From: Symbiodinium natans
Taxonomy: Eukaryota; Sar; Dinophyceae; Suessiales; Symbiodiniaceae
NCBI GenBank assembly: GCA_905221605.1
Contig: CAJNDS010001413.1
Location: 67,501-131,500 of the forward strand
DNA length: 64,000 bases
Direction of reading: 5' to 3'
Within the stretch, counting starts at the first letter, position 1. Every line of letters begins with the position of its first letter. This document shows, one piece after another, positions 16,143 to 51,225 of this stretch. Position numbers and translations under genes: made by a program. A model generated the notes under the pieces. The model searched no databases. It saw only the letters and a list, made by a program, of their open reading frames with translations, and was not told the DNA's origin.

Positions 16143-16167
16143 AAACACACACACACACACACCCACG

Positions 16168-16208
<41 letters not shown>

Positions 16209-16283
16209 ACGCACGCACGCACGCACACACACACACACACCCACCCACCCACCCACCCACCCACCCACCCACCCACCCACCCA

Positions 16284-16343
<60 letters not shown>

Positions 16344-16375
16344 CCCACGCACACACACACACACACACACACACA
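16143..16375. repeat. Compound microsatellite (CA)n/(CCCA)n/(GCAC)n
   Basis: Blocks of CA, CCCA and GCAC repeats just upstream of copia copy 1. Long open frames here are repeat artefacts. Confidence 0.95.
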
Positions 16376-16417
16376 AAACTCAGAATCATGTGCCTTGAAC
16401 AAAGACCCTAAACCCTA

Positions 16418-16514
16418 TGCGGAGCTGCAACTGGTATTGTAGAAAGGAGTTGGTGATGGGAGTTGAAAGGGTCAACGTACCCGGAAATCTTTTTTGGCTC
16501 GGTTGCCCCCCGTA
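16418..16514 (+). repeat. Copy 1 5' LTR, 97 bp, internally deleted
   Basis: Begins TGCGGAGCTGCAACTGG and ends GGTTGCCCCCCGTA. Relative to the 219-bp 3' LTR it lacks about 122 bp between GGCTC and GGTTGCCCCCC. The junction has 1-2 bases of microhomology. The rest is identical to the 3' LTR. Confidence 0.92.
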
Positions 16515-16526
16515 GGTTATGAGCCC
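16515..16526 (+). promoter_or_regulatory. Primer-binding site, half-tRNA-Met type (copy 1)
   Basis: GGTTATGAGCCC follows the LTR directly. It is complementary to GGGCTCATAACC, the anticodon stem-loop region of a tRNA-Met (CAU anticodon). This is the same kind of site as in Drosophila copia, which uses a 5' half of initiator tRNA-Met as primer. It does not match a tRNA 3' end. The primer identity is inferred. Confidence 0.65.
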
Positions 16527-16576
16527 AAATTAGGCTTCCTGCGGAATAGGTAAAGATTTTTCGTTTGTTTAACGCC

Positions 16577-19500
16577 ATGGACATGATGCGGCGTCGCTCT
16601 GAGCCTGGACTGTCGCCAACGGCCAATGAAGCCGAAGGAAATCGCGGTGATGGGGGTGATGAACGACAACAAATGGTACAAGCGCTGACAGATGGTAGGG
16701 AGGTTGCAATGATACAACCAACGCCTCAGGTGGAAAACGAAGTGGTTCCGGTTCAAGCAGCAAATCCTTTCTGGAGCGAGCGGGCTCAAGAAGAAATGAG
16801 ACTTAGGCAATCAAGGCCGGCAAGTCTTCCTGCGAGCGGAGGGGATAGAAGTGGTGAAGGTACGAGGAGGCCGCCTTCGCTGCAAGATCTTTTGGGTCAG
16901 GAACCTGCACCTGTTGAGAGACCATCGTCAGGCTTAATGGGCCAGATGGAACGAGGTACTATTGGTGGAGTGCAAGCAGACGAAGAGCTCATTCCTGATG
17001 TTAGTGGTGAAGAGCAAACTGAAGATATGGCGGTGGTAAAGCGTGCGCTGAAAGAGTTGCTTGTGCAAACAAAGGAGCTGGGGAACAGGTTGCATCGGGT
17101 GGAGGAGAAAAGCTATACCTCTGCTGCATCTGGGTCAGCTTCAAGGGCACGGAGCTCTGGAGTGGTGGACGCAAACACGGCATATCCTCTAGGAATGACT
17201 CCAGAGAAGCAGTACCTGCCAGGACAAGTTTTCTACACGGATGGTATGGGTGGTTTTTGGACTGTGTTGCCTGATGGGACATGGCTGCCTATTGAGGGCT
17301 ACGACCTGCCAAAGGGTTGTGATCTTCAATCCTTGCCTGGGTCCAGGAAGGGGGATGTTCAAGTGGAGGATGAAAAAGAAGTGCCAATGATGCATGTAGC
17401 TGAAGGGAAGAAACCCTCCAGATTGCCTCCATTGAATTACCCCACGGGAGGTCCTGCAAGTGGTGGATATGCAAGTGGACCACCTGGTTTAACACATGTT
17501 CCGATTACTTCCGTGCCGTCGGGTGTTGATGGTTCTGCCGCACCTGTGGGGAACCAGCCCGGTTTTGTTTCAGCTCGGGAAACTGCAACGCAAGAGAACT
17601 CAGCAGGATCGGGTGGATATACAATGGTGGATGATGTTCCGTATCGGTGGAAAATGGTCGCTGGGAAGTTGGAATTGGAAAAGGTTCCGCTCACAGCTGT
17701 TACGCCCGGTATAGGACATGGACGACCTCAAGGGCCTGGTGGAAGGGTCAGTTTACCTCCTGGAGCAGTGGTGCCACGTGGTATGCCAATCATTGGTGAT
17801 AGTTCTGGAACCGAACGTCCGGAGGCTCTCGGGAAGCATGTGATGAGCCTTCCAACTTTGGCAGACTACACACCAAGCAATCCGACGGCACTGGGTGATT
17901 GGATCGCAATGATCGAACCAATGTTGTCTTCGCTGACAGATACAGGAAGAGTGTGGTGGCAATGCGTCTACTCAAAGGCGTATCAGGCGTATGCCAAATG
18001 GTTGAGTGTTTCTCCGCTGGAAAGGTTGGGCATCAAGGCTGAGCTGGAAGGGCTCAAAGTGGTTCAAACTGTGCATGTTTTGTTGGAGCAGAGAGCGGTG
18101 TCTTTGCTGTTACAGGCGATCCCGGAGAGATTGAAGACCGAGATCGTTTCCACTCGAATGTTGGGGTCAGTGATGATATTTTACAAATTGCTGACGGTCT
18201 ACCAACCAGGTGGAGCAAATGAGCGCAGCACAATGTTGAACTTCTTGGTGCAACCATCTCCAGCAACCTCGATTTCAGAGGCCATAAAGGGAGTGCGTCA
18301 ATGGGCACAATGGCGTTCCCGATTAAGGGAGTTGAGAGCGGCCGAGCCGGACGCTACCTTGCTTATCAAGGGATTGGATGGTTTATCATCCGCGTTGCTG
18401 GCAAAACACCCTACGGTTCATTTCAGAGTGGCATCCTTTCGGGAGAAATTGGGGGTGGACTACTCGCCGACCTCTGAAACTGCGACAAAACTAGCTGAAA
18501 TGTTACAGGCAGAGTTTGAACTGCTATTGCATAGTGCTGGTGAACAAGAGGTGAAGCAGGACTCGGACGCCAAGAAAAGGGCCAGGTTAAACAAGGCCCA
18601 AAAGGGAACTGGTGACGAGACAGAGGAGGGTGACAAAGGCAAAGGGAAAGGAAAAAGGTACAGCGGAGATGGTGACCGTCCTTTCTGTTGGATATATGGG
18701 AAGACTGATGCAGGTTGCAAGTTCGGATCCCGCTGCAAATTTCGCCATGACAAAGACTCCCTTGAGCGAGGAAGATGTTTTGAGTGTGGGGCCGTTGGCC
18801 ATCTGCAGCCGCAATGTCCATATAAGGATGGTGCAAGTTCCAATGTGGACTCAAATCCTGAGAGGAGTAGATCTAAAGGGAATTCTCCCAAAGGGGGAAA
18901 GGGCGGCAAAGGTGCGAAATGGGGAAATGCCAAAAAGGCAGAGGTAGCTGAAGGGGGAGATGAGACGGCTAATGCGGGATTGGATAAAGGTTCTGCAAGT
19001 CCCTCATCGCCATCAACGGCCAATCAGGTCCTTGTTGAAGCGTTAAAAGCGCTGAAATCTATGAAGCTGTCATCAGAACAGTCGGCATCAGGCGGGGATC
19101 CCAGTGTTCGAATGTTATGTGGCTCTGGGCTGCTTCAGCAGGAAGGGAGAGTGGCGTTGGTGGATACAGCTGCTACGCATCTTGTGCGGACGCTTTTTCC
19201 ATGGGAATGTTTACCCGACACTACTGTTATGGTGCAAAGCGCGCTTGGTGGTGTGACAATGAGGATTACAGAGAAAGGGACGTTGATTAGGGAAGACAAT
19301 GGGCCCCTGATTATCCCTCTCTGGTTGATTTTGGAGTTTGGGGCGAACCTCACTGTGATCAATGGGATGTGTCACGTGGGTGCAAAATCTTCGCTGGACC
19401 AGCTCTTGTGGTTTGAACATGGCTGTTTGGTTATGGATTACAAAACAGCTGAAAAAATGGTTTTGCATGCTGAAAGGCAGCGTGCGTCTTGGTCCCATTC

Positions 19501-21100
19501 TCAATGGAGGAATGGAAGGGCGGACTGTGGAGTCGGTTCGTCGGATGCCACGTTGTTGCCGAAGCAGGGAGAAGGCCGAGGAGTATGCGTTCTACATGTG
19601 GCCAGGGTTTCTGACACCAATGAGTGTTCGGGAATGGGCATGTTGGACTCGGGAGCATCACATCCTCTCAGATCACTTCGTCCTGGTGAACAGCTTCCGC
19701 AGCAAAAGGTGTTGGTGTCTTTAGCTGTTGGATCTCGGGAGATGTGTATTACCCCAGGTGGGACCCTGGTAACTCCTGAAATGGTAGATCCACTAGTGCC
19801 AATTGGCAAAGCGAGCGCCTTGGTTGGTCTCAGAGTTCAGTGGCGTGGTGGCAAGTGCACAGCCTCACATCCTGTTCTGGGGGAACTTCGCGTTCGTGAT
19901 CTGAATGGGTGCCCTTGTTTAGAAAAGGAGGTGGCGCTTCAGATCATTGATGAAATGGATTGGTGCTCACCAAAGCAAGCTTTGAAGGTGGCACGTATGG
20001 TTCAAGGGTGTCCGAATACGGACAACGAGGTGGCTGTAAAAACGTCGTTGCAAAGCGCAGCGCGGACAGCGTCAGCGAATGAGGAGGAGTTCGTCCAGGC
20101 ATGCTGGAGATTTCTTCGGTGGTATTATGGGGATATACCAGAAAATATGCTGATGGAGCTGTTGCCACGTGGAGATATTGCGGCGTTGCCTTTCAACCGT
20201 CATAAAAGGAGACGGCTGGCACGAGCAAAAAGGGTGGTGGTACACCTATTTTCGGGGAAACAAAAATGGCATTTTCCCAGTCGGGATGTGGAGGTACTGG
20301 AGCTGGATTTGACAAAAGGCGGTGACCTACATAATTCGAGCGTCTGGAAGTATCTTCTGCATCTGGCGGCTGAAGGAAAGGTGGTTGCTGTGGTTGGAGG
20401 ACCTCCATGCAGGACAGTGTCAAGGTTGAGAGGTGAAGACGGTGGTCCACCTGTATTACGCCGACGCTGTGGGCCTGAACGGTTGGGATTAAAAAGTCTT
20501 CCTTGGCCACATCAAGAATTAGCTCAAAAGGATGGTGTTTTACTTCTGAAGATGCTTTTCCTATATGACGTGGCGGTGCATTCAAGGTGTGGAACTGCTG
20601 AAGTCATCAATGGAAGTTCTGTCTTCTTTGGCATGGAAAGCCCTGGGGACCCTGAACTCATAGGGAAAGATTTCTCTCAGAACGGCAAAACGGTCTTGAG
20701 TGCTGAGGATCTGGTGGATGGTTCTCAGGAAGGGCTCTCAAGTCCTACCTTCTGGAGTTGGCCAGAGGTGAAAAGCTTTTGTGAGCGTTATGGAATGTAC
20801 GCTGCACATTTTGATCAAGGAGCACTGGGACATGCTCTGGTGAAACCTACGACTTTCCTGGTGTCTGATATGGAACTATGGGAATCGTTGGAACAGGTTC
20901 GCGTGGTTGTTCCGTGGTCAGCAACATTCGCTTCTACCCTGGAAGAGCGGATTGGACAATCCTCCATATGGGCGCGATGGGCGTTTGGATTGGTTAAAAG
21001 AATACGTCACAGGTTGGCACAATGGTTGCATGAGAGCGATGCTGAACGGGAAGCTATGGTGTTAAAAAAGAAGAACGAGAAGGGACGTTACGGAGGTTGA
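16577..21100 (+). pseudogene. Copy 1 gag / protease / methyltransferase-like segment
   Basis: First open segment of the copy 1 polyprotein. I start it at ATG 16577 (CGCCATGG context), although the frame is open slightly upstream. In order: low-complexity gag; CCCH finger (18686-18748, C-x9-C-x5-C-x3-H); CCHC knuckle (18776-18817, C-x2-C-x4-H-x4-C); first protease-like motif VDTAATH (Asp codon 19163); second protease motif LDSGASH (Asp codon 19646); C5-methyltransferase-like block with HLFSG and GGPPCRTVS (Cys codon 20408). A one-base loss in an A-run near 21065 shifts the frame into TGA at 21098-21100. This copy keeps the 16 bases missing from copy 2's gag. Confidence 0.9.
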
Positions 21101-21103
21101 CAG

Positions 21104-22213
21104 ACTGAGGAGCGAGCTTTCCGTGACCATTGCCTAAGGGGGCATATTCCTTTCAGACGTGATTGTCAAATCTGTGTGTCTGCCGCTGGAAAAGAGCGTC
21201 GCCATTTGAGGCGGAAGCATGGGGATGCTTACACTTTATCATTGGACTTAGCGGGTCCATACAAGTGTTCAAAGGATGCTCACCAGCAGAAGCCACGACA
21301 CGCTGTTATTGGTGTGTATCAGTTTCCAATGTTGGATCCCAATGTGGGTCGCCCTCCAGAAAAGGAGGGAGATGCGGATGAGGTGGAAGATCAGGTGGCA
21401 GATGATGGTGCTGGTGTCGGAGAATGGTTAGGCGATGCAGTCGCTAACTTCGAGGAGGAAGACTCTGCGCCGGTGGAACCTGCGCCAGTTCTGGAGGCAG
21501 AGGTGTTGAAAATCCAAGCTTCTGAAAAATCCTGGAAGGAACTGAAGGACCACTTGACCCAACCTGTCCGTATGATCAACTTCGTTATGGTGGAGCCGAT
21601 TATGGACAAACAGCAAACAACTGTTTTGTCGGCAGTTCAAAGAATGATGGTGCGCTTGCAGAGACATGGGTATCCGGTGTTGAGAATCCACTCAGATCGA
21701 GCGGGGGAGTTTGTCAATGCACGCTTCCGGTCCTTTTGTGAAACTCGTCTGATATATAGGACCACTGGTGATCCTGGAGTCCCGCAAACAAATGGGCGCG
21801 CTGAAGCATGTGTGGGTTTATTCAAACGTGGTGTCAGGTCGCTCTTAAAGGAGGCGCGACTCGGGCCGGCGTACTGGGCACTGGCTGCTCGCCATTGGTC
21901 AATGTTACGGTGGCAGAAAGCTGAAAGGGAGTTGGGGTTAAATCCTAAAGCATTGCTTCCCTTTGGTGCTCAGATTCAAGTCAAACGTCGTCCGTGGGAG
22001 TTGCTGGGTCCGGATGGAACAAAGAAAGGTCGGCAATGGGTCGATCGTACGCAGCCCGCGCTTCTTTTGGGTCCATGCGATGACCTACCTGGTGGTTATT
22101 GGGTGGAAGCTCAAGGGACTGCAAAAGATCCGGATGAACTGGTGTTATTTCCCTGCACTACGATTTTTTCCAATATAAAGGAACCGCCTGAGTTGGAGCT
22201 GGAAGGGGTGGTA
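21104..22213 (+). pseudogene. Copy 1 integrase segment
   Basis: A one-base gain just after the stop returns the sequence to the original frame. It encodes a His/Cys region (about 21120-21185) and an integrase core with Asp in LDLAGP (21245), Asp in HSDRAGEF (21695) and Glu in NGRAEAC (21803). A one-base deletion near 22213 (GTAGAGAAC here, GTAGAAGAAC in copy 2) ends the frame; the shifted reading stops at 22336. Confidence 0.88.
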
Positions 22214-25200
22214 GAGAACAGGAGCCTTCTCCTCCAGAGCATCGTCTCAGGGGGAAAAAACCGGCGCTTCGGTTCGCTGATGAGGAAGGTCCTCCTTTAC
22301 CTCCGCCTCGCGATCCTCCAGTTCGCCATCGGTTGATGGAGAAAAGCCCGGCCTCTTCACTGCGTGGTCATGTGGGTTCCTTGCGCTTGCTTCGCAAGCG
22401 GGGGGAGAGTCCGCCCTTAGAAATTTTTGAGGATGACATGCAGGGTCTGGGGGAGCTGGAAGAAAATGCAGATGTTGAGGACAATGTTCCTGGTGATGAG
22501 TATTGGCCGACTTGCTGTTCTCCTCATGAAAATGCTTATTTGGTCTGCAAAAGTGAGACTGCTGAGGATGGAACACAGTTGGACAAAGAAGAGCAAAAAG
22601 CCAAGTCAATGTATGAAAGGTCTATGTATGATTACGTGGACTGTGAGGAGCTTTTGGAAGGGATTGTATACCCAAAGAGGGTGAATCGAAGAGGTGGTAT
22701 CAACAATTGGTGTACAAGTACGCGAGCTCTGGCGTTGGGCCACTATACTCATGGCGGAGTGTGTGGTATTACAAAAGAGACTCATCGAAGACCATGGCTA
22801 TGTCGTTATTTGGCATCATTCGTGAGGCACCACAATCCTGAAGCCAAATTTTCTGCTCTTCAGATCTCGTGCAATGCTCCGGTGTCATTGCATAGGGATA
22901 GTCACAATGAAAAGCACTGCTGCAATTATGTGTGTGGCTTTGGTGACTATAAAGATGGTCAGCTGTGGGTTGAGGATGAAAAGGTTTTAGAGGAAGGAGC
23001 TGAAGTGGTGGAGCAATCCTATGGGAAGAAAGTCTTACCTGGAAAATTGGTGGATATCCACTGGAACTTCATGTCGTTCTTTCCGAGAAAACTGCATGGT
23101 CCTATGCCTTGGAAAGGGAACAGGGTATCCTTGACAGGGCACACACCTGTTTTTATGGAGCGTTTGAGCTACAAGGATAGGTGCTATCTTCTCCAATGCA
23201 AGTTTCCTCTTCCAGAACCACAAGCTGAAGAAGGTGAAAAAAGGAAATGGTTAAAAATGACGTTGAAAGAAACCTCGCTGGACGACCTTGCAGAGGAAGT
23301 CGACTACGCTGTGTTCGAAGCGCATCAATGGGCTCTAGAGGAGCATTTGAGTATTCGGCGCCTAATTGCTGAACAGGAATGTTGCATTTTGGACGAGTTC
23401 CATGGATCGGCCAATGAGTCGAATGAGGAAAAAGGATCAGAAACTAGAGAATGGCTGGTTAAAGCGAAAAGGGCTGAGGAACAGCTCTCGAAGTTTTTGG
23501 TCAAAGCAGCTCAAGTTCAGCAAATGGTGCAAGAAAATACCGCGCTTGAGGCAGCAGAGGAGGTTGAGTTCCTGCAAACAAAAACAATCCCTACACAAGA
23601 AGCCATGCAAGAGCTGGAAAAGTGGAGGGAATCATTGTCGGACGAGGTGACGTCTTTGGTGAAAGAGTTGGAGGTGGTGGAACCAACAACTCAAGAAAAG
23701 CTGGACAAATTGGCGGAAGAGCCTAATGCACCGGTGATTGAGTACGTTCCCAGTCTGGTGGTGTTTACCCGGAAGCAAGGGACAGGGAGGCGACGTGCCC
23801 GTATCTGTGCATGTGGAAACTTCATTTCGTCAACGGCAGCTACAGAATATGAAGGGCCGAGGTCACTCAGTCGTCACTCGCTGTACGCTCCAGGTTTAGA
23901 TTCAACTACATTCAGGTGTCAAGTGAGGCACGCAGCATATATGGTGTGGATCATCGCTGGTTTAGACATTTCCAAAGCTTTTCTGACGGCGCCGATGAAT
24001 AGGGCGCAAAGAGAAGGGCGTCTGGTGGTGGTGCAGCCCCCAAGGGCGGCGGTGAAATTGGGTCTTTGCACAAAAGAGGAGCGGTGGATTGTGAGAAAGG
24101 CCTTGTACGGTTTGGCCGAAAGTCCTGCAGCATGGGTGGAGTGGCGAGACCAACGTCTTCAAGGTATGTCTTGGGTATCAAAGGATGGACAAGCAATGAG
24201 CTTTCAGAGGTCCAATGCAGACCCAAGTCTGTTCCTTATTATGGCGCAAGAGAAGCCGGAAGGTGCAAGCAAGTTGGTAGGGACAATGGGTCTTTACGTG
24301 GATGATTTTTTGATGGCTGGGACTATGACAGTGCTCCGGGAAGCCTTGGAACAGATTAGGAAGGAGTGGAAAACTTCTGAACCCGAGTTCTGTGGTCCAG
24401 GCTGTGGTGATGGATTCCTGAAGTTTTTGGGTGTCCAAATCTGGTATCGAAATGGCAGCTTCTTTCTCAACCAGGAGGACTTTGTGAGAGATTTGCTGAA
24501 CCGAAGAGGGTGTCAGATTGATGAAACTGGAAAAGGTAGTAACCTGCCAATGGTGAAAGAAACTCCAGGTGAAGAAGAGGAGGTGGATATTCCTTCCTTA
24601 CGAGCGGCTCAAGGTGCCGTAGGGGAGTTCCTCTGGGTGGCAATCAAAACTCGACCTGATTTGGCGTTCTGCACGAGCCAGTTGTCTTTGTGGACATCCC
24701 GAAGGCCGCGATTTGTGGTTAAAAAGGCTGAGGAGGTTTTTCGATACCTTGCTGCAACTCCAATGTTAGGCCTGACGTTCGGAGCAATCGCAACATGCGA
24801 AAAAGAAAGGAATGAGGTGTTGCGTTATGGACGAGGCGTCAAGGTGGTGGAGTCCTATGCGGATGCCAGCTTTGCAGCAGGTGAAAATGAAAAGAGCCAC
24901 TCAGGAGCGGTGGTGGTGTGGGGTGACTGTCCAGTGATGTGGGCAACACAGAGACAATCAACGGTGGCTTTAAGTACAGCTGAAGCTGAATTACATGCGT
25001 CCATAGAGGGAGCAACGATGATTCAGTCGTGCACCCCTATAATTGCCGCTTTGGTTGGAACAGGTGAAGAATCGCTGCAAAAAGTGCTGTATACAGATTC
25101 GGTTTCAACGTGCTCGATCATTCAATATCCTGCTGGAAGCTGGAGGACAAGACACCTGAGAATTCGAGCAGCCGGTGTCAGGTCTCTGGTGGACCGTGGT

Positions 25201-25797
25201 TATATGGTGATAGCGCATCTTCGCGGTGAGTATATGATCGCTGACCTGTTGACCAAGTTGATGAGTGGACAGGTGTATGCAAAGCAAAAGGCACTTTGGG
25301 GTCTCCGACTGTTGGTACAAGGGACTGACTTGAAGAGGGCCTCGCTTGCAATGGCGGTCATGATGGTGGCTGCATCTCTGCAAGGGATGGCAACTGGTGG
25401 CGAAGAAGTGTCAACTGCTGGTTTCTTTTGCTCGGAAGAAGGGGTGTGCAAGGTCGCCAACACATCTACGGTGATGGTTCTGGCTCAAGGTATTGAAATG
25501 GTTATCAACAATTCAGACCTTGTTGCGTATTTGGTGGCAGCAATTATACTCTGGGAATTGGCATGGTGCCTCTTTCGGCAGCTGTATAAATGGCTGTGGG
25601 TTAAGAAAGTGGTGGTTATTCCTGCGAGTGCCACTTTGTATACAACAGTGGGTGGGAACTGTATGCACGCAAGCAGTGACTGTGATGTTCTGCGATATTC
25701 ACAGCCCAGGGCTAAGACGCTTTGTAAGCATTGCCTCAAGGATGGCTGGGTGGTGAATGCCGAGTTCCTTGGTGAGGAACGGGCCGCTGGAACGTGA
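22214..25797 (+). pseudogene. Copy 1 2OG-dioxygenase-like / RT / RNase H segment
   Basis: Third segment, open to TGA at 25795-25797. It carries a 2OG-Fe(II)-oxygenase-like domain with His-x-Asp (HRD, 22891-22899), distal His (23095) and Arg (23122). The reverse transcriptase follows, with GLDISKAFL (Asp 23965), ALYGLAESPAAW and YVDD (24301). RNase H has Asp (24862), STAEAELHA (Glu 24988) and YTDS. A C-terminal extension contains a transmembrane stretch (VAYLVAAIILWELAW) and a Cys/His cluster. Nearly identical to copy 2. Confidence 0.9.
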
Positions 25798-25982
25798 ATT
25801 TTTCAAGTGCGAGGGGAAGAAATCCTCAATGGTAAGGGATTCGGCCAATGAGCTGAAGGTTCGTCCTGGATGACGTAAAACCATAATGTGCATTTTAAGC
25901 AGCTGGCTACTGCCTAAATGGCGGTTTTTGGCCAAAGATCTGCACCTCCAATGTGTCCTAGGAAATCCTAGGACAGGGGGAG

Positions 25983-26201
25983 TGCGGAGCTGCAACTGGT
26001 ATTGTAGAAAGGAGTTGGTGATGGGAGTTGAAAGGGTCAACGTACCCGGAAATCTTTTTTGGCTCAAGATGACAGTGCACTTAGTGAGAAAAGGGTGCTT
26101 GGTCTTTTGGGTTTGGTTTGGTGTTGGTTGGTCCAGGGGATCAAGGGCTTCTGTTGGGGTTGACTGTTTTGTTCCCTGTCCTCCTTCGGTTGCCCCCCGT
26201 A
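25983..26201 (+). repeat. Copy 1 3' LTR, 219 bp
   Basis: TGCGGAGCTG...CCCCCCGTA. Purine-rich AGGACAGGGGGAG lies directly before it (25970-25982). The central part (AAGATGACAGTGCACTTAG and on) differs strongly from copy 2's LTR, while both ends are alike. Terminal dinucleotides are TG...TA rather than TG...CA. Confidence 0.92.
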
Positions 26202-26261
26202 CCCTAAACCCTAAACCCCAAACCCTAAACCCCAAACCCTAAACCCTAAACCCTAAACCCC
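26202..26261 (-). repeat. Telomeric tract holding copia copy 1
   Basis: CCCTAAA and CCCCAAA units directly after the 3' LTR. The same repeat (ACCCTAAACCCTA) precedes the 5' LTR, so the element split a telomere-type tract. Confidence 0.93.
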
Positions 26262-26284: not shown

Positions 26285-35051
<8,767 letters not shown>

Positions 35052-38335: not shown

Positions 38336-38340
38336 CCCCC

Positions 38341-38690
38341 TGCGGAGCTGCAATTGGTATTGTAGAAAGGAGTTGGTATTGGAGGTTGAAGGGTCAATGA
38401 ACCCGGTAATCTTTGGCTCAAGCCATGACCAAAGCGGTCGAAGGTTTCGTAAAAAGTGTACCCTTGGTTTGGGGTCTTGCTGTTCGGTTGTTGGTTGTTC
38501 CAGGGGTAATAAGGGCTTCTGTTGGGGTTGACTGTCTTGTTCCCTGTCCTCCTTCGGTTGCCCCCCTTCGTAAAAAGTGTACCCTTGGTTTGGGGTCTTG
38601 CTGTTCGGTTGTTGGTTGTTCCAGGGGTAATAAGGGCTTCTGTTGGGGTTGACTGTCTTGTTCCCTGTCCTCCTTCGGTTGCCCCCCGTA
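38341..38690 (+). repeat. Copy 2 5' LTR, 350 bp, with 121-bp tandem duplication
   Basis: Starts TGCGGAGCTGCAATTGG and ends TTGCCCCCCGTA. A block from TTCGTAAAAAGTG through GGTTGCCCCCC occurs twice in tandem (about 38447-38567 and 38568-38687). The 3' LTR has it once. Confidence 0.93.
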
Positions 38691-38702
38691 GGTTATGAGC
38701 CC
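38691..38702 (+). promoter_or_regulatory. Primer-binding site, half-tRNA-Met type (copy 2)
   Basis: GGTTATGAGCCC abuts the LTR, identical to copy 1. It is complementary to a tRNA-Met anticodon region. Confidence 0.65.
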
Positions 38703-38752
38703 AAATTAGGCTTCCTGCGGAATTGGTAAAGATTTTTCGTTTGTTTAACGCC

Positions 38753-39446
38753 ATGGACATGATGCGGCGTCGCTCTGAGCCTGGACTGTCGCCAACGGCC
38801 AATGAAGCCGAAGGAAATCGTGGTGATGGGGGTGAAGATCGACAACAAATGGTACAAGCACTGACAGATGGTAGGGAGGTTGCAATGATACAACCAACGC
38901 CTCAGGTGGAAAACGAAGTGGTTCCGGTTCAAGCAGCAAATCCTTTCTGGAGCGAGCGGGCTCAAGAAGAAATGAGACTTAGGCAGTCAAGGCCGGCAAG
39001 TCTTCCCGCGAGCGGAGGGGATAGGAGTGGCGAAGGTACGAGGAGACCGCCTTCGCTGCAAGACCTTTTGGGTCAGGAACCTGCACCTGTTGAGAGACCA
39101 TCGTCAGGCTTAATGGGACAAATGGAACGAGGTACTATTGGTGGAGTGCAAGCCGATGAAGAACTCATTCCTGATGTTAGTGGTGAAGAGCAAACTGAAG
39201 ATATGGCGGTGGTGAAGCGTGCGCTGGAAGAGTTGCTTGCGCAGACAAAGGAGCTGGGGAACAGGTTGCATCGGGTGGAGGAAAAAAGCTATACCTCTGC
39301 TGCATCTGGGTCAGCTTCAAGGGCACGGAGCTCTGGAGTGGTGGACGCAAACACGGCATATCCTCTAGGAATGACTCCAGAGAAGCAGTACCTGCCAGGA
39401 CAAGTTTTCTACACGGATGGTATGGGTGGTTTTTGGACTGTGTTGC
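38753..39446 (+). pseudogene. Copy 2 gag N-terminus, frameshifted
   Basis: Starts at ATG 38753 (GCCATGG), as in copy 1, and is nearly identical for about 230 residues. A 16-bp deletion near 39446 relative to copy 1 then shifts it out of frame with the remainder. The out-of-frame reading ends at 39550. Confidence 0.85.
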
Positions 39447-42400
39447 CCCCATTGAGGGCTACGACCTGCCAAAGGGTTGTGATCTTCAATCCTTGCCTGG
39501 GTCCAGGAAGGGGGATGTTCAAGTGGAGGATGAAAAAGAAGTGCCAATGATGCATGTAGCTGAAGGGAAGAAACCCTCCAGATTGCCTCCATTGAATTAC
39601 CCCACGGGAGGTCCTGCAAGTGGTGGATATGCAAGTGGACCACCTGGTTTAACACATGTTCCGATTACTTCCGTGCCATCAGGTGTTGATGGTTCTGTCG
39701 CACCTGCGGGGAACCAGCCCGGTTTTGTTTCAGCTCGGGAAACTGCAACGCAAGAGAACTCAGCAGGATCGGGTGGATATACAATGGTGGATGATGTTCC
39801 GTATCGGTGGAAAATGGTCGCTGGGAAGTTGGAATTAGAAAAGGTTCCGCTCACAGCTGTTACGCCTGGTATAGGACATGGACTACCTCAAGGGCCTGGT
39901 GGAAGGGTCAGCTTACCTCCTGGAGCAGTGGTGCCACGCGGTATGCCAATCACTGGTGATAGTTCTGGAACCGAACGTCCGGAGGCTCTCGGGAAGCATG
40001 TGATGAGCCTTCCAACTTTGGCAGACTACACACCAAGCAATCCGACGGCACTGGGTGATTGGATCGCAATGATCGAACCAATGTTGTCTTCGCTGACAGA
40101 TACAGGAAGAGTGTGGTGGCAATGCGTCTACTCAAAGGCATATCAAGCGTATGCCAAATGGTTGAGTGTTTCTCCACTGGAAAGGTTGGGCATCAAGACT
40201 GAGCTGGAAGGGCTCAAGGTGGTTCAAACTGTGCATGTTTTGTTGGAGCAGAGAGCGGTGTCTTTGCTGCTACAGGCGATCCCGGAGAGATTGAAGACCG
40301 AGATCGTTTCCACTCGAATGTTGGGGTCGGTGATGATATTTTACAAATTGCTGACGGTTTACCAACCAGGTGGAGCAAATGAGCGCAGCACAATGTTGAA
40401 CTTCTTGGTGCAACCATCTTCAGCAACCTCAATTTCAGAGGCTATTAAGGGAGTGCGACAATGGGCGCAATGGCGTTCCCGATTAAGGGAGCTGCGAGCA
40501 TCCGAGCCGGACGCTACCTTGCTTATCAAGGGATTGGATGCTTTATCATCCGCGTTGCTGGCAAAACACCCTACGGTGCATTTCAGAGTGGCATCCTTTC
40601 GGGAGAAATTGGGGGTGGACTACTCGCCGACCTCTGAAACTGCGACACAACTAGCTGAAATGTTACAGGCAGAGTTTGAACTGCTATTGCATAGTGCTGG
40701 TGAACAAGAGGTGAAGCAGGACTCGGACGCCAAGAAAAGGGCCAGGTTAAATAAGGCCCAAAAAGGGACTGGTGACGAGACAGAGGAGGGTGACAAAGGC
40801 AAAGGGAAAGGAAAAAGGTACAGCGGAGATGGTGAACGTCCTTTCTGTTGGATATATGGGAAGACCGATGCAGGTTGCAAGTTCGGATCTCGCTGCAAAT
40901 TCCGCCATGACAAAGACTCCCTTGAGCGAGGAAGATGTTTTGAGTGCGGGGCCGTTGGCCATCTGCAGCCGCAATGTCCATATAAGGATGGTGTAAGTTC
41001 CAATGTGGACTCAAATCCTGAGAGGAGTAGATCTAAAGGGAATTCTCCCAAAGGGGGAAAGGGCGGCAAAGGTGCGAAATGGGGAAATGCCAAAAAGGCA
41101 GAGGTAGCTGAAGGGGGAGATGAGACGGCTAATGCGGGATTGGATAAAGGTTCTGCAAGTCCCTCATCACCATCAACGGCCAATCAGGTCCTTGTTGAAG
41201 CGTTAGAAGTGCTGAAATCTATGAAGCTGTCATCAGAACAGTCGGCATCAGGCGGGGATCCCAGTATTCGAATGTTATGTGGCTCTGGGCTGCTTCAGCA
41301 GGAAGGGAGAGTGGCGTTGGTGGATACAGCTGCTACGCATCTTGCGCGGACGCTTTTTCCATGGGAATGTTTACCCGACACTACTGTTATGGTGCAAAGC
41401 GCGCTTGGTGGTGTGACAATGAGGATTACAGAGAAAGGGACGTTGATTAGGGAAGACAATGGGCCCCTGATTATCCCTCTCTGGTTGGTTTTGGAGTTTG
41501 GGGCGAACCTCACTGTGATCAATGGGATGTGTCACGTGGGTGCAAAATCTTCGCTGGACCAGCTCTTGTGGTTTGAACATGGCTGTTTGGTTATGGATTA
41601 CAAAACAGCTGAAAAAATGGTTTTGCATGCTGAAAGGCAGCGTGCGTCTTGGTCCCATTCTCAATGGAGGAATGGAAGGGCGGACTGTGGAGTCGGTTCG
41701 TCGGATGCCACGTTGTTGCCGAAGCAGGGAGAAGGCCGAGGAGTATGCGTTCTACATGTGGCCAGGGTTTCTGACACCAATGAGTGTTCGGGAATGGGCA
41801 TGTTGGACTCGGGAGCATCACATCCTCTCAGATCACTTCGTCCTGGTGAACAGCTTCCGCAGCAAAAGGTGTTGGTGTCTTTAGCTGTTGGATCTCGGGA
41901 GATGTGTATTACCCCAGGTGGGACCCTGGTAACTCCTGAAATGGTAGATCCACTAGTGCCAATTGGCAAAGCGAGCGCCTTGGTTGGTCTCAGAGTTCAG
42001 TGGCGTGGTGGCAAGTGCACAGCCTCACATCCTGTTCTGGGGGAACTTCGCGTTCGTGATCTGAATGGGTGCCCTTGTTTGGAAAAGGAGGTGGCGCTTC
42101 AGATCATTGATGAAATGGATTGGTGCTCACCAAAGCAAGCTTTGAAGGTGGCACGTATGGTTCAAGGGTGTCCGAATACGGACAACGAGGTGGCTGTAAA
42201 AACGTCGTTGCAAAGCGCAGCGCGGACAGCGTCAGCGAATGAGGAGGAGTTCGTCCAGGCATGCTGGAGATTTCTTCGGTGGCATTATGGGGATATACCA
42301 GAAAATACGCTGATGGAGCTGTTGCCACGTGGAGATATTGCGGCGTTGCCTTTCAACCGTCATAAAAGGAGACGGCTGGCACGAGCAAAAAGGGTGGTGG

Positions 42401-45400
42401 TACACCTATTTTCAGGAAAACAAAAATGGCATTTTCCCAGTCGGGATGTGGAGGTACTGGAGCTGGATTTGACAAAAGGCGGTGACCTACATAATTCGAG
42501 CGTCTGGAAGTATCTTCTGCATCTGGCGGCTGAAGGAAAGGTGGTTGCTGTGGTGGGAGGACCTCCATGCAGGACAGTGTCAAGGTTGAGAGGTGAAGAC
42601 GGTGGTCCACCTGTATTACGCCGACGCTGTGGGCCTGAACGGTTGGGGTTAAAAAGTCTTCCTTGGCCACATCAAGAATTAGCTCAAAAGGATGGTGTTT
42701 TACTTCTGAAGATGCTTTTCCTATATGACGTGGCAGTGCATTCAAGGTGTGGAACTGCTGAAGTCATCAATGGGAGTTCTGTCTTTTTTGGCATGGAAAG
42801 CCCTGGGGACCCTGAACTCATAGGGAAAGATTTCTCTCAGAACGGCAAAACGGTCTTGAGTGCTGAGGATCTGGTGGATGGTTCTCAGGAAGGGCTCTCA
42901 AGTCCTACCTTCTGGAGTTGGCCAGAGGTGAAAAGCTTTTGTGAGCGTTATGGAATGTACGCTGCACACTTTGATCAAGGAGCGTTGGGACATGCTCTGG
43001 TGAAACCTACGACTTTCCTGGTGTCTGATATGGAACTATGGGAATCGTTGGAACAGGTTCGCGTGGTTGTTCCGTGGTCAGCAACATTCGCTTCTACCCT
43101 GGAAGAGCGTATTGGACAGTCCTCTATATGGGCGCGATGGGCGTTTGGATTGGTCAAAAGAATACGTCACAGGTTGGCACAATGGTTGCATGAGAGCGAT
43201 GCTGAACGGGAAGCTACGGTGTTAAAAAAAGAAGAACGAGAAGGGACGTTACGGAGGTTGACGACCGAGGAGCGAGCTTTCCGTGACCATTGCCTAAGGG
43301 GGCAGATTCCCTTCAGACGTGATTGTCACATCTGTGTGTCTGCTGCTGGAAAAGAGCGTCGCCATTTGAGGCTAAAGCATGGGGATGCTTACACTTTATC
43401 ATTGGACTTAGCGGGTCCATACAAGTGTTCAAAGGATGCTCACCAGCAGAAGCCACGACACGCTGTTATTGGTGTGTATCAGTTTCCAATGTTGGATCCC
43501 AATGTGGGTCGCCCTCCAGAAAAGGAGGAAGATGCGGATGAGGTGGAAGATCAGGTGGCAGATGAAGGTGCTGGTGTCGGAGAATGGTTAGGCGATGCAG
43601 TCGCTAACTTCGAGGAGGAAGACTCTGCGCCGGTGGAACCTGCGCCAGTTCTGGAGGCAGAGGTGTTGAAAATCCAAGCTTCTGAAAAATCCTGGAAGGA
43701 ACTGAAGGACCACTTGACCCAACCTGTCCGTATGATCAACTTCGTTATGGTGGAGCCGATTGTGGACAAACAGCAAACAACTGTTTTGTCGGCAGTTCAA
43801 AGGATGATGGTGCGCTTGCAGAGACATGGGTATCCAGTGTTGAGAATCCACTCAGATCGAGCGGGGGAGTTTGTCAATGCACGCTTCCGGTCCTTTTGTG
43901 AAACTCGTCTGATATATAGGACCACTGGTGATCCTGGAGTCCCGCAAACAAATGGGCGCGCTGAAGCATGTGTGGGTTTATTCAAACGTGGTGTCAGGTC
44001 GCTCTTAAAGGAGGCGCGACTCGGGCCGGCGTACTGGGCACTGGCTGCTCGCCATTGGTCAATGTTACGGTGGCAGAAAGCTGAAAGGGAGTTGGGGTTG
44101 AATCCTAAAACATTGCTTCCCTTTGGTGCTCAGATTCAAGTCAAACGTCGTCCGTGGGAGTTGCTGGGTCCGGATGGAACAAAGAAAGGTCGGCAATGGG
44201 TCGATCGTACGCAGCCTGCACTTCTTTTGGGTCCATGCGATGACCTACCTGGTGGTTATTGGGTGGAAGCTCAAGGGACTGCAAAAGATCCGGATGAACT
44301 GGTGTTATTTCCCTGCACTACGATTTTTTCCAATATCAAGGAACCGCCTGAATTGGAGCTGGAAGGGGTGGTAGAAGAACAGGAGCCTTCTCCTCCAGAG
44401 CATCGTCTCAAGGGGAAAAAACCGGCGCTTCGGTTCGCTGATGAAGAAGGTCCTCCTTTACCTCCGCCTCGCGATCCTCCAGTTTGTCATCGGTTAAATG
44501 AAAAAAGCCCGGCCTCTTCACTGCGTGGTCATGTGGGCTCCTTGCGCTTGCTTCGCAAGCGGGGGGAGAGTCCGCCCTTGGAAATTTTCGAGGATGACAT
44601 GCAGGGTCTGGGGGAGCTGGAAGAAAATGCAGACGTCGAGGACAATGTTCCTGGTGATGAGTATTGGCCGACTTGCTGTTCTCCTCATGAAAATGCTTAT
44701 TTGGTCTGCAAAAGTGGGACTGCTGAAGATGGAACACAGTTGGAAAAAGAAGAGCAAAAAGCCAAGTCAATGTATGAAAGGTCTATGTATGATTACGTGG
44801 ACTGCGAGGAGCTTTTGGAAGGGATTGTATACCCAAAGAGGGTGAATCGAAGAGGTGGTATCAACAATTGGTGTACAAGTACGCGAGCTCTGGTGTTGGG
44901 CCACTATACTCATGGCGGAGTGTGTGGTATCACAAAAGAGACCCATCGAAGACCATGGCTATGTCGTTATTTGGCATCATTCGTGAGGCACCACAATCCT
45001 GAAGCCAAATTTTCTGCTCTTCAAATCTCGTGCAATGCTCCGGTGTCATTGCATAGGGATAGTCACAATGAAAAACATTGCTGCAATTATGTGTGTGGCT
45101 TTGGTGACTATAAAGATGGTCAGCTGTGGGTTGAGGATGAAAAGGTTTTAGAGGAAGGAGCTGAAGTGGTGGAGCAATCTTATGGGAAGAAAGTCCTACC
45201 TGGAAAATTGGTGGATATCCACTGGAACTTCATGTCGTTCTTTCCGAGAAAGCTGCATGGCCCTATGCCTTGGAAAGGAAACAGGGTATCCTTGACAGGG
45301 TACACACCTGTTTTTATGGAGCGTTTGAGCTACAAGGATAGGTGCTATCTTCTCCAATGCAAGTTTCCTCTTCCGGAACCACAGGCTGAAGAAGGTGAAA

Positions 45401-47958
45401 AAAGGAAGTGGTTAAAAATGACGTTGAAAGAGACCTCGCTGGACGACCTTGCAGAGGAAGTCGACTACGCTGTGTTCGAAGCGCATCAATGGGCTCTGGA
45501 GGAGCATTTGGGTATTCGACGCCTAATTGCTGAACAGGAATGTTGCATCTTGGACGAGTTCCATGGATCGGCCAATGAGTCGAGTGAAGAAAAAGGATCA
45601 GAGACTAGAGAATGGCTGGTTAAAGCAAAAAGGGCTGAGGAACAGCTATCGAAGTTTTTGGTCAAAGCAGCTCAAGTTCAGCAAATGGTGCAAGAAAATA
45701 CCGCGCTTGAGGCAGCGGAGGAGGTTGAGTTCCTGCAAACAAAAACAATTCCTACACAAGAAGCCATGCAAGAGCTGGAAAAGTGGAGGGAATCATTGTC
45801 GGACGAGGTGACGTCTTTGGTGAAAGAGTTGGAGGTGGTAGAACCAACAACTCAGGAAAAGCTGGACAAATTGGTGGAAGAGCCTAATGCACCGGTGATT
45901 GAGTACGTTCCCAGTCTGGTGGTGTTTACCCGGAAGCAAGGGACAGGGAGGCGACGTGCCCGTATCTGTGCATGTGGAAACTTCATTTCGTCAACGGCAG
46001 CTACAGAATATGAAGGGCCGAGGTCACTCAGTCGTCACTCGCTGTACGCTCCAGGTTTAGATTCAACTACATTCAGGTGTCAAGTGAGGCACGCAGCATA
46101 TATGGTGTGGATCATCGCTGGCTTAGACATTTCCAAAGCTTTTCTGACGGCGCCGATGAATAGGGCGCAAAGAGAAGGGCGTTTGGTGGTGGTGCAGCCC
46201 CCAAGGGCGGCGGTGAAATTGGGTCTTTGCACAAAAGAGGAGCGGTGGATTGTGAGGAAGGCCTTGTACGGTTTGGCCGAAAGTCCTGCAGCATGGGTGG
46301 AGTGGCGAGACCAACGTCTTCAAGGTATGTCTTGGGTGTCAAAGGATGGACAAGCAATGAGCTTTCAGAGGTCCAATGCAGACCCAAGTCTGTTCCTTAT
46401 TATGGCACAAGAAAAGCCGGAAGGTGCAAGCAAGTTGGTAGGGACAATGGGTCTTTACGTGGATGATTTTTTGATGGCTGGGACTATGACAGTGCTCCGG
46501 GAGGCCTTGGAACAGATTAGGAAGGAGTGGAAAACTTCTGAACCCGAGTTCTGTGGTCCAGGCTGCGGTGATGGATTCCTGAAGTTTTTAGGTGTCCAAA
46601 TCTGGTATCGAAATGGCAGCTTCTTTCTCAACCAGGAGGACTTTGTGAGAGATTTGCTGAACCGACGAGGGTATCAGATCGATGAAACTGGAAAAGGAAG
46701 TAACCTGCCAATGGTGAAAGAAACTCCAGGTGAAGAAGAGGAGGTGGATATTCCTTCCTTGCGAGCGGCACAAGGTGCCGTAGGGGAGTTCCTCTGGGTG
46801 GCAATCAAAACTCGACCTGATTTGGCGTTCTGCACGAGTCAGTTGTCTTTGTGGACATCCCGAAGGCCGCGATTTGTGGTTAAAAAGGCTGAGGAGGTTT
46901 TCCGATACCTTGCTGCAACTCCAACGTTAGGCTTGACGGTCGGAGCAATCGCAACATGCGAAAAAGAAAGGAATGAGGTGTTGCGTTATGGACGAGGTGT
47001 TAAGGTGGTGGAGTCCTACGCGGATGCCAGCTTTGCAGCAGGTGAAAATGAAAAGAGCCACTCAGGAGCGGTAGTGGTGTGGGGTGACTGTCCAGTGATG
47101 TGGGCAACACAGAGACAATCAACGGTGGCTTTAAGTACAGCTGAAGCTGAATTACATGCGTCCATAGAGGGAGCAACGATGATTCAGTCGTGCACCCCTA
47201 TAATTGCTGCTTTGGTTGGAACAGGTGAAGAATCGCTGCAAAAAGTGCTGTATACAGATTCGGTTTCAACGTGCTCGATCATTCAATATCCTGCTGGAAG
47301 CTGGAGGACAAGACACCTGAGAATTCGAGCAGCCGGTGTCAGGTCTCTGGTGGACCGTGGTTATATGGTGATAGCGCATCTTCGCGGTGAGTATATGATC
47401 GCTGACCTGTTGACTAAGTTGATGAGTGGACAGGTGTACGCAAAGCAAAAGGCACTTTGGGGTCTCCGACTGTTGGTACAAGGGACTGACTTGAAAAAAG
47501 CCTCGCTTGCAATGGCGGTCATGATGGTGGCTGCATCTCTGCAAGGGATGGCAACTGGTGGCGAAGAAGTGTCCACGGCTGGATTCTTTTGCTCAGAAGA
47601 AGGGGTGTGCAAGGTCGCCAACACGTCTACGGTGATGGTTCTGGCTCAAGGTATTGAAATGGTTGTCAACAATTCAGACCTTGTTGCGTATTTGGTGGCA
47701 GCAATTATACTCTGGGAACTGGCATGGTGCCTCTTTCGACGGCTGTATAAATGGCTGTGGATAAAGAAAGCGGTGGTTATTCCTGCGAGTGCCACTTTGT
47801 ATACAACAGTGGGTGGGAACTGTATGCACGCAAGCAGTGATTGTGATGTTCTGCGATATTCACAGCTCAGAGCTAAGACGCTTTGTAAGCATTGCCTCAA
47901 GGATGGCTGGGTGGTGAATGCTGAGTTCCTTGGTGAGGAACGAGCCGCTGGAACGTGA
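39447..47958 (+). CDS. Copia polyprotein: gag-PR-PR-MTase-like-INT-2OG-like-RT-RH-TM
   Basis: One open frame of about 2,840 codons to TGA 47956-47958; typical copia polyproteins are about half this length. Numbering from codon 39433: CCCH finger 472-492; CCHC knuckle 502-515; protease-like Asp 631 (VDTAATH) and Asp 792 (LDSGASH); C5-methyltransferase-like HLFSG near 991, GGPPC with Cys 1046, MES near 1121; integrase Asp 1325, Asp 1475, Glu 1511; 2OG-oxygenase-like HRD from 1874, His 1942, Arg 1951; reverse transcriptase Asp 2232 and YVDD at 2342-2345; RNase H Asp 2531 and Glu 2573; C-terminal membrane helix about 2752-2776 and a Cys/His cluster. It probably acts in cytoplasmic particles and the nucleus. 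As it stands the gag N-terminus is lost, so this copy needs frameshifting or trans help. Function of the two extra enzyme-like domains is inferred from motifs only. Confidence 0.92.
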
Positions 47959-48130
47959 ATTTTCCAAGTGCGAGGTGAAGAAATCCTCAATGGTAAAGGA
48001 TTCAGCCAATGAGCTGAAGGTTCGTCCTGGAAGACGTTAAACCACAATGTGCATTTCAAGCAGCTGGCTGCTGCCTAAATGGCGGTTTTTGGCCAAAGAT
48101 CTGCACCTCCAATGTGTCCTAGGAAATCCT

Positions 48131-48143
48131 AGGACAGGGGGAG
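48131..48143 (+). promoter_or_regulatory. Polypurine tract (copy 2)
   Basis: AGGACAGGGGGAG immediately precedes the 3' LTR, as expected for plus-strand priming. Copy 1 has the same sequence at 25970-25982. Confidence 0.7.
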
Positions 48144-48372
48144 TGCGGAGCTGCAATTGGTATTGTAGAAAGGAGTTGGTATTGGAGGTTGAAGGGTCAA
48201 TGAACCCGGTAATCTTTGGCTCAAGCCATGACCAAAGCGGTCGAAGGTTTCGTAAAAAGTGTACCCTTGGTTTGGGGTCTTGCTGTTCGGTTGTTGGTTG
48301 TTCCAGGGGTAATAAGGGCTTCTGTTGGGGTTGACTGTCTTGTTCCCTGTCCTCCTTCGGTTGCCCCCCGTA
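48144..48372 (+). repeat. Copy 2 3' LTR, 229 bp
   Basis: Single-copy version of the 5' LTR and identical to it outside the duplication. Ends CCCCCCGTA, followed by the CCCCC target-site duplication. Confidence 0.94.
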
Positions 48373-48652
48373 CCCCCAACCCTTCTCCCCATGACTGTCA
48401 AGATGCAAAACAATCAGCTCCTCCGTTCCTTCTCAGGTTTTTAGAAGGGGGGAGTGGCTTTGCCGGGTGAGCTTTGACTTGCCTGGAGGGTTCGTCTGCG
48501 ACTGACGCGCATGCAAGCGTGACAGCAATGGCCCCCCAAATGTGGCTTTTGAACTTTACCGCGTCAAGGTGTTTGCACTTGCTGGGACCCCTGAATCCCA
48601 TGTCAGTAACCACATGCCACCAAGCTTGGACTTCGGAGAATCCCACCACGCC

Positions 48653-49516: not shown

Positions 49517-50439
49517 TAAACCCGAAGTTGCAGCCCTCGTTGGTGCAGACGGGCCTTGGAGTGATCTAGCTCACCGATGTGGCCTCGGCGGGTTTAAGAT
49601 GCTCAGGTGTTGGGACCTCAAAAAGATACAAAGATTGAGCCTTGGGAAACATGACTCGAACAGCAAGTTCAATAACACGATAGATGGCATGTTTCAATCG
49701 CATGCTAGATCACATGCTAATGCCCAATAACGTGTCAGAAAGAAAACTAAATATCATGTTCTGCTCAACCCATAACCTCCACATGCCTCCACCGTACAGC
49801 CTGCCCGCATTCCTGGTGCCCGAGTCCGAAACTCTGCAAGCCACTTCATGCTAGGCTTCAGATTAGTCGGCTGGGCTTTATAGACTGAATAATTTATAGA
49901 CTTGCGCAAGTTGAGTTCCGGAGCTTTGCGCTTGCAATGCGGTGCAGCCCAGCAGCTGTTCTCCATGCGTGTGCGCATGCAGAACTTATACCTCACAGGG
50001 AAGCTTCTCAGGGATCGGAAAAGAGTTCTGCAAGCTTTCTCTGAACATCACTGGACGTTTTTGGAGGGACCCTACTTTCTAGTTGACCCTTGAAATCTGG
50101 CGCGGACCGGATCCAGGGCTTAGGGAAAGGAACACAAGGAACAGGAAATTGCTAATTTTGCAACCTCAGCTTCTGTCTCCAAGATGAGGAATGACAGTAA
50201 AGGCAGCAAAGTGCAAGCCCCGGAACAACTCCGAACCCACAAAAGATGCCAGCACAGAATCCTTGGTGTCTAACGCCACTTAGGAGCAAATCCCCTTAGG
50301 CTGCGAACGAACGGATCGGCAAAAAGGGACGAGGGAAGCACGTCCCTGACCGACGTTTTCGCGACAGTAGCGAGGGCTCGCTTTGCATCATGGATCCACC
50401 AATGCTTTTCAATTTCACTCCCAACACAGCCCCATAAAG

Positions 50440-51225
50440 TGTTTGTGTGTGTGTGTGTGCGTGTCTCTCTTTCTCGTTGTCTCTCTGTCTTCGCGTCTCT
50501 CTGTCTCTCTGTCCCTCTGTCTCTCTGTCTCTCTGTCTCTCTGTCTCTCTGAATCTCTGTCTCTCTGTCTCTCTGTCTCTCTGTCTCTCTGAATCTCTGT
50601 CTCTCTGTCTCTCTGTCTCTCTGTCTCTCTCTGTCTCTCTGTCTCTCTGTCTCTCTGTCTCTGTGTCTGTGTGTCTGCGTGTCTCTCTGTTCCTCTTCTT
50701 CTTCTACCGGGCATGGAGGACAGGGCAGAAGTCCCTGAACCTCCGCGCGCTGGGCGCGCCCTTCAAGTCTCGGGTCACGTCGGCGAGAAACGAAGAAAAC
50801 ACGCGAGTCGCACTTGTTTCCCACACGTGTCTCTCTGTCTCTCTGTCTCTCTGTCCCTCTGTCTCTCTGTTCTCTGTCTCTCTGTCTCTCTGTCTCTCTG
50901 TCTCTCTGAATCTCTGTCTCTGCGTCTGTGTGTCTGCGTGTCTGCGTGTCTGTGTCTCTGGGTCTGTGTGTCTGCGTGTCTGCGTGTCTGTGTCTCTGGG
51001 TCTGTGTGTCTGCGTGTCTCTGTGCCCGTGCGCTGTGTGTCCGTGTGTCTGCGTGTGTCTGTGTCTCTGCATCCCTGCATCCCTGCGTCCCTGCGTCCCT
51101 GCGTCTCTGCGTCTCTGCGTCTCTGCGTCTCTGCGTCTCTGCGTCTCTGCGTCTGTGTCAGTGTGGCTGTGCGTCTGTGTGTCTCTGTGTCTGCGCGTCT
51201 GTGTATCTGTGGGTCTGTGTGGTCT
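50440..51225. repeat. (TCTCTCTG)n and TCTGTGTG/TCTGCGTG tandem repeats
   Basis: Two tracts (50440-50690 and 50820-51225) flank about 130 bp of unique sequence. All long frames here (Leu-Ser-Val or Arg-Asp-Glu-Thr repeats) are repeat artefacts. Confidence 0.95.

Follow-up and report, generated by a model that had tools for sequence, protein, structure and literature searches.

A predicted TET/JBP-like oxygenase domain between integrase and reverse transcriptase in a Ty1/copia retrotransposon of the dinoflagellate Symbiodinium natans

What would an oxygenase-like domain be doing inside the polyprotein of a retrotransposon? The question is raised by 64,000 nucleotides of the Symbiodinium natans genome (contig CAJNDS010001413.1, positions 67,501 to 131,500, forward strand), here called the window and numbered from its first letter, which contain two copies of one Ty1/copia long terminal repeat (LTR) retrotransposon with such a domain encoded in its Pol region. 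We consider it reasonably probable that the domain is a TET/JBP-like oxygenase dependent on Fe(II) and 2-oxoglutarate (2OG), carried by an abundant dinoflagellate Ty1/copia element and selected for the benefit of that element. Its fold, iron and co-substrate residues, position between integrase and reverse transcriptase (RT), purifying selection and high copy number are taken from the sequence or from a structural model, and its features are as follows:

44746..45384, + strand: predicted TET/JBP-like Fe(II)/2OG oxygenase domain of copy 2, residues 1850-2062 of protein P0001
22585..23223, + strand: oxygenase domain of copy 1, 211 of 213 residues identical to copy 2
45052..45060, + strand: His-Arg-Asp, the HxD motif with two predicted iron ligands, His and Asp being present in 37 of 37 distinct domain strings
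45067..45069, + strand: Asn at Asp+3 (37 of 37), aligned to Asn1387 of human TET2, where the profile of alignment A3 aligns with HRDLHN of TET2
45256..45258, + strand: distal His, predicted third iron ligand (37 of 37)
45283..45285, + strand: Arg, the expected 2OG binder, in 33 of 36 rows covering the site

A preliminary description had proposed the domain from a motif made up of three peptides, all of which are found in one open reading frame (ORF; 39199-47958, + strand) at 45037, 45103 and 45238, while in copy 1 the first and third occur at 22876 and 23077 and the middle one can be seen by eye; the conservation between copies claimed there extends to all but two residues of the domain. The order of the ligands was also given correctly (His1952-x-Asp1954, 65 residues, His2020, 8 residues, Arg2029), the accompanying figures of 68 and nine residues being residue offsets and not gaps, and the interval said to begin at 44661 lies in the right place and in the wrong frame, frame 1 of that interval being riddled with stops and the coding frame being that of 44662. 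Taken by itself the motif would constitute weak evidence for an oxygenase, because a loose H-x-D...H...R pattern recurs by chance in the integrase of the same protein (residues 1551/1619). A chance motif was rejected on the invariance across divergent relatives, the predicted fold and purifying selection.

Searched directly, the domain recovered few homologues (3 matches and 1 match, all from the same or a close family), and the divergent relatives were reached through an RT search, which returned 19 proteins at E<=1e-10, two of them named Symbiodinium sp. CCMP2592. Nine of these carry the domain, eight being called by a domain profile, a partly circular procedure as the profile was built from such domains, and P0008 by its motif. 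The first alignment (A1, 10 rows, both window copies included) has ten invariant columns (H, R, D, N, W, G, H, R, L, F). In A3 the window copy shares 23-40% identity with the 18 remaining rows, and the addition of domains from the same genome resulted in 37 distinct strings, several of them near-identical, with P0006 and P0007 (incomplete), P0008 (a near window-family copy), P0009 (no distal half) and identical repeats left out of the counts. The preliminary description had pointed to loss of the triad in most copies as a sign against an oxygenase; His, Asp and His are kept in every one of the aligned strings. Both window copies keep the predicted 2OG Arg, and at Arg+6 34 of 36 rows have Tyr or Phe and the other two His, one of these being window copy 1.

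A fold without a beta-helix, the other sign that had been named, was not obtained either: the AlphaFold2 (AF2) model of the domain (pLDDT 83.1, pTM 0.83) is a predicted 2OG-oxygenase double-stranded beta-helix, with TET enzymes and then AlkB as its best solved matches. Such a fold combined with an HxD...H triad and a downstream Arg places the modelled domain in the Fe(II)/2OG oxygenase superfamily, and the closest solved fold to the model is a TET enzyme, the best PDB folds being NgTET1, CcTet, TET2 and AlkB and the top VIA match NgTET1, in a ranking limited to the folds listed by VIA. The polar residue expected at Asp+3 in TET/JBP (PF12851) appears to be supplied by the Asn. At sequence level, 11 of the 19 A3 members match Tet_JBP (best E 6.4e-7), a count biased towards that family as ten of the 19 rows came from a Tet_JBP search and neighbourhood fetch, and two of the ten A1 members match it weakly (E 0.039 and 0.17). 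All ten fetched Tet_JBP loci were recovered by the previously built A1 profile (89-139 bits) and therefore belong to the same family as the window domain. When the A3 profile was compared with all PDB sequences, five of the six found at E<=10 were TET2 or CcTet (E 0.12-0.9), the alignment with TET2 running through HRDxHN. Because the domain falls below the cut-off of the curated profile, we file it as TET/JBP-like by sequence, outside curated PF12851 membership.

A number of results weigh against this assignment. No Pfam family matches the domain of the window itself at E 10, and Tet_JBP run over the S. natans genome (759 Mb, 2543 contigs) gives 32 matches at E<=10, none of which reaches the cut-off (best 26.7 vs 34.9 bits), the same loose search also being positive in one of 14 control genomes. 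The matches to TET chains in PDB are non-significant on their own, the single sequence and the first profile find only unrelated weak chains there, and one A3 member also matches Asp_Arg_Hydrox (E 0.016). Across 50 listed Foldseek rows the query-normalised TM-scores are modest (0.35-0.50, root-mean-square deviation 5.0-13.1 Å), and AlkB, FTO and PHD folds score close to TET. Within the domain the 2OG Arg is replaced by Met in three short stand-alone ORFs (3 of the 36 rows covering the site), and none of the 36 rows has a His at Arg+8, Pro standing there in 23; we take this site to be that of the base-contacting His in TET2 and NgTET1. Finally, the reading frames are broken in both window copies, and the gene model of one carrier, P0009, is truncated and lacks the distal half. 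Searches of PHROGs and NCBIfam yielded no informative match to the window domain or to P0005.

That the domain is under purifying selection can be seen from the two copies themselves, which differ within it by 13 silent and 2 replacement changes (dN/dS, the ratio of replacement to silent divergence, 0.037), i.e., 2 nonsynonymous changes of 15, where about 79% would be expected (binomial p 8.6e-8); for comparison, the value is 0.040 for a 300-codon RT stretch and 0.021 for the methyltransferase-like domain described below. A first look at the same genome yielded 1581 window-family candidates, of which the best 150 were scored, all being at least 99% identical and having no stops inside the match. 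By our own count 17 of these 150 are contained in open frames 3087-3091 aa long, and uninterrupted copies therefore seem to be present. A search with a distant member gave 1600 candidates, the best 150 of which are all stop-free in the match (E<=5.3e-18). As only the best candidates were scored, these copy numbers are lower bounds, and the distant-member set mixes families.

The placement between integrase and RT given in the preliminary description was confirmed for this element by profile coordinates, and the surrounding features are as follows:

16418..26201, + strand: copy 1 of the element, 97.2% identical to copy 2
38341..38690, + strand: 5' LTR of copy 2, carrying an internal 121-bp duplication
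48144..48372, + strand: 3' LTR of copy 2
39199..47958, + strand: copia-type polyprotein ORF of copy 2, 2919 aa, stop to stop
40864..40980, + strand: CCCH and CCHC zinc fingers of the Gag part, below the Pfam cut-off (zf-CCCH_4 E 0.0041, zf-CCHC E 0.027)
42322..43197, + strand: C5-methyltransferase-like domain with HLFSG, GGPPCR (Cys codon 42568-42570), ESP and KPTT, conserved in relatives
43357..44160, + strand: integrase, profile coordinates (Pfam rve E 0.0025, below cut-off)
45898..46920, + strand: RT, profile coordinates (Pfam RVT_2 E 4.6e-10, 40 bits vs a cut-off of 31.6)
46879..47358, + strand: RNase H, approximate extent, overlapping the end of the RT profile

The RVT_2 match, the integrase upstream of the RT, the LTRs and a 5-bp target-site duplication (CCCCC, 38336-38340 and 48373-48377) make this a Ty1/copia element, the LTRs of copy 2 being 100% identical over the aligned pieces (226 bp and 124 bp). 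Its polyprotein runs from Gag with zinc fingers through the methyltransferase-like domain, integrase, oxygenase, RT and RNase H to a C-terminal extension, the latter and the protease having been placed by eye. The RNase H stretch was likewise picked out by eye; L021 and L029 have a match to it at the equivalent position behind the RT, and its motifs were located. In copy 2 the start of Gag (38699-39550) is in a different frame from the main ORF, and the ORF of copy 1 is interrupted by frame breaks near 21.1 kb and 22.2 kb. Silent divergence (dS) between the copies (16499-26212 vs 38675-48383) is uneven. It is 0.018-0.022 in the Gag-protease stretch and the integrase and rises to 0.07-0.15 around the oxygenase and RT and in the methyltransferase-like domain, an unevenness that points to a mosaic origin from different element lineages. 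Transitions account for all 15 differences within the oxygenase domain and for 180 of the 228 substitutions element-wide.

The oxygenase domain is also found in other arrangements in this genome. L019, L020, L028 and L030, which belong to a highly divergent copia clade, have it on the upstream side of an integrase that is matched weakly (15-16 bits, or Pfam E 0.06-0.13), and L023, L024 and L026, in which the integrase is not matched, were grouped with this pre-integrase set by domain and RT similarity. In a further arrangement (L022 and L025) it precedes a methyltransferase-like domain and a region weakly matched by RVT_1 (E 0.002 and 0.27, respectively); a DIRS label for these elements was dropped, as none of the four neighbouring ORFs scanned has a tyrosine recombinase Pfam match. 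The copia-like ORF of L047 (1-6588, - strand; RVT_2 E 0.0063) has the domain after RNase H, as judged by eye, and further on a match to the RNA 2'-phosphotransferase Tpt1/KptA (E 6e-5, 23.6 bits vs a cut-off of 26). In L043-L045 the domain makes up most of a short ORF (217-273 aa), and all three have the Met in place of the 2OG Arg. The list from the distant-member search holds many open frames of 197-298 aa. The domain tree places the pre-integrase rows in a single clade (98/97) and the short ORFs in another (100/100), with a weakly supported clade (88/53) for the RVT_1 rows. Presence and absence are scattered over the RT tree, with five changes over 32 rows, two of the labels being flawed (L026 is marked as lacking the domain, its RT and oxygenase lying in different frames, and P0007 is represented by a 32-residue piece only), and this pattern would fit early gain followed by losses and repeated transfer alike. 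No relatives were found in viral contigs, whether by single sequence or by alignment.

The domain upstream of the integrase bears HLFSG, GGPPCR, ESP/EQP and KPTT, which we take to resemble the motifs of C5-methyltransferases and which recur among relatives. It has no Pfam match (PF00145 included) and no PDB sequence match; its AF2 model has a pLDDT of 71.8 and a pTM of 0.79, and the methyltransferase name should be regarded as a lead. In a profile comparison it corresponds to the domain of two RVT_1 elements (probability 97.7, E 1.9e-12). A like domain noted by eye in the pre-integrase elements, which give no match to that of the window, is unsupported in the comparison of the two (hhalign E 0.47), the hhalign value for the RVT_1 elements against the pre-integrase ones being 0.018. 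Five proteins (P0010, P0015, P0018, P0020 and P0025) have the methyltransferase-like domain without the oxygenase, P0026 has it with the Cys lost, and L021 gives weak split matches only, without the Cys. PMC5890265 states that Symbiodinium copia lacks any DNA methyltransferase (DNMT) domain.

How the element might profit from an oxygenase can be outlined as follows. The domain would be released with, or tethered to, integrase or RT, a location in Pol that would be well suited to action on cDNA or at the integration site, and would oxidise the 5-methyl group of a pyrimidine in element cDNA or integrated copies. A 5-methylpyrimidine in DNA is favoured because of the Asn signature and the closeness to TET: Asn1387 of TET2 is described as contacting N4 of 5-methylcytosine (5mC) and excluding N6-methyladenine (6mA), and an aromatic residue as stacking on the base in TETs (PMC11040006). 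The likeliest substrate would be 5mC, ranked first because Symbiodinium CGs are reported to be methylated over most of the genome (PMC5890265), and the element would thereby loosen or pre-empt silencing by cytosine methylation, possibly jointly with the upstream methyltransferase-like domain. Conversion of thymine to 5-hydroxymethyluracil (5hmU) would be the second choice, ranked there because of the host's own 5hmU (PMC11071213).

The present results do not separate thymine from 5mC, and we regard it as possible and rather doubtful that the element encodes a thymine hydroxylase that makes 5hmU, as JBP1/2 do in kinetoplastids, and so lets new element DNA mimic the 5hmU-rich chromatin of the host. 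In dinoflagellate DNA 12-68% of thymine is reportedly replaced by 5hmU and most repeats are described as 5hmU-enriched in Breviolum minutum (PMC11071213), JBP1/2 are reported to be thymidine hydroxylases (PMC11065753), and NgTET1, the best VIA match, reportedly acts on thymine too (PMC12344493). Also, no canonical host TET/JBP gene was seen and no Tet_JBP match reaches the cut-off, though exon-split genes may escape such a search. Against it, the Asn at Asp+3 is described as a contact to cytosine N4 (PMC11040006), an enzyme in every element is hardly needed for genome-wide 5hmU, and the link of the domain to hydroxymethyluracil, which the preliminary description had alluded to, is a guess. An AlkB-like RNA demethylase, removing N6-methyladenosine (m6A) or other marks from element RNA in the manner of the AlkB of an orchid Ty3/gypsy element, seems to us unlikely; AlkB is among the best folds for the model, and no AlkB-type profile is among the matches listed for the ten A1 members at E 10 or for the 19 A3 members at E 1. 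Least credible, to the point of being very improbable, is a non-catalytic relic of the fold or a structural linker of the polyprotein, for which one may cite the ten of 19 RT-search copia relatives in which the domain was not shown, a silence that is less informative for three of them (P0014 and P0016 have no visible integrase and P0022 starts inside the RT), as well as the Met for Arg in the stand-alone relatives; such a relic would hardly keep its iron ligands invariant and its dN/dS so low, nor recur at several positions in different elements.

With a TET/JBP-like oxygenase as the preferred reading, the closest known systems can be compared. The domain resembles TET/JBP (PF12851; NgTET1, CcTet, TET2) in its predicted fold, HxD...H...R and polar Asp+3, sharing HRDxHN with TET2, and differs from it in its score below the curated cut-off, its location inside a retrotransposon Pol and the lack of a His at Arg+8. 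Fungal Kyakuja, Zisupton, Helitron and other elements are likewise mobile and are described as having passed a TET/JBP-type oxygenase between element lineages, but they are DNA transposons and not LTR retrotransposons (PMC12730594). That December 2025 survey of fungi reports a TET/JBP gene in no retrotransposon, with high copy number offered as a possible reason. A 2OG oxygenase on an LTR retrotransposon is described in Phalaenopsis, where an AlkB-type 2OG-dependent dioxygenase (2-ODD) differs in residing in a gypsy element, in an additional ORF, and in belonging to the AlkB family with RNA m6A activity in vitro; the same source reports no domain gain in copia elements of 121 angiosperm genomes (PMC9289625). 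SymbioLINE-Dnmt and SymbioDIRS-Dnmt3 are likewise dinoflagellate retrotransposons reported to carry a DNA-modification enzyme, in their case methyltransferases in LINE and DIRS elements (PMC5890265), and heat-activated copia elements are reported in Symbiodinium microadriaticum, as cited in PMC11453091.

TET/JBP cargo, previously known in fungal DNA transposons, would thus be present here in a high-copy retrotransposon and in several lineages of one genome. Dinoflagellates are reported to combine heavy CG methylation (PMC5890265) with hydroxymethyluracil of unknown function in place of 12-68% of thymine (PMC11071213), and the domain of about 210 residues is a testable candidate enzyme for oxidising pyrimidines in such DNA, in a retrotransposon setting that renders an arms race over DNA marks testable. 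More speculatively, and with considerable reserve, dinoflagellate retrotransposons of more than one class may hold a self-contained base-modification kit, in which a C5-methyltransferase-like and a TET-like domain of one polyprotein together write and rewrite marks on element DNA, and which with well over 100 near-identical copies in this genome could be a source of the oxidised pyrimidines in dinoflagellate DNA.

A relic of the spliced leader was not found within the window with up to three mismatches allowed. Copy 1 is flanked on both sides by CCCTA, as seen by eye (16413-16417 and 26202-26206), and its insertion site adjoins CCCTAAA-type repeats. Arrays with a mostly 8-base spacing occur at 16088-16430, 31523-31727 and 50408-51030, and one of these arrays stops at the point where copy 1 has its 5' end.
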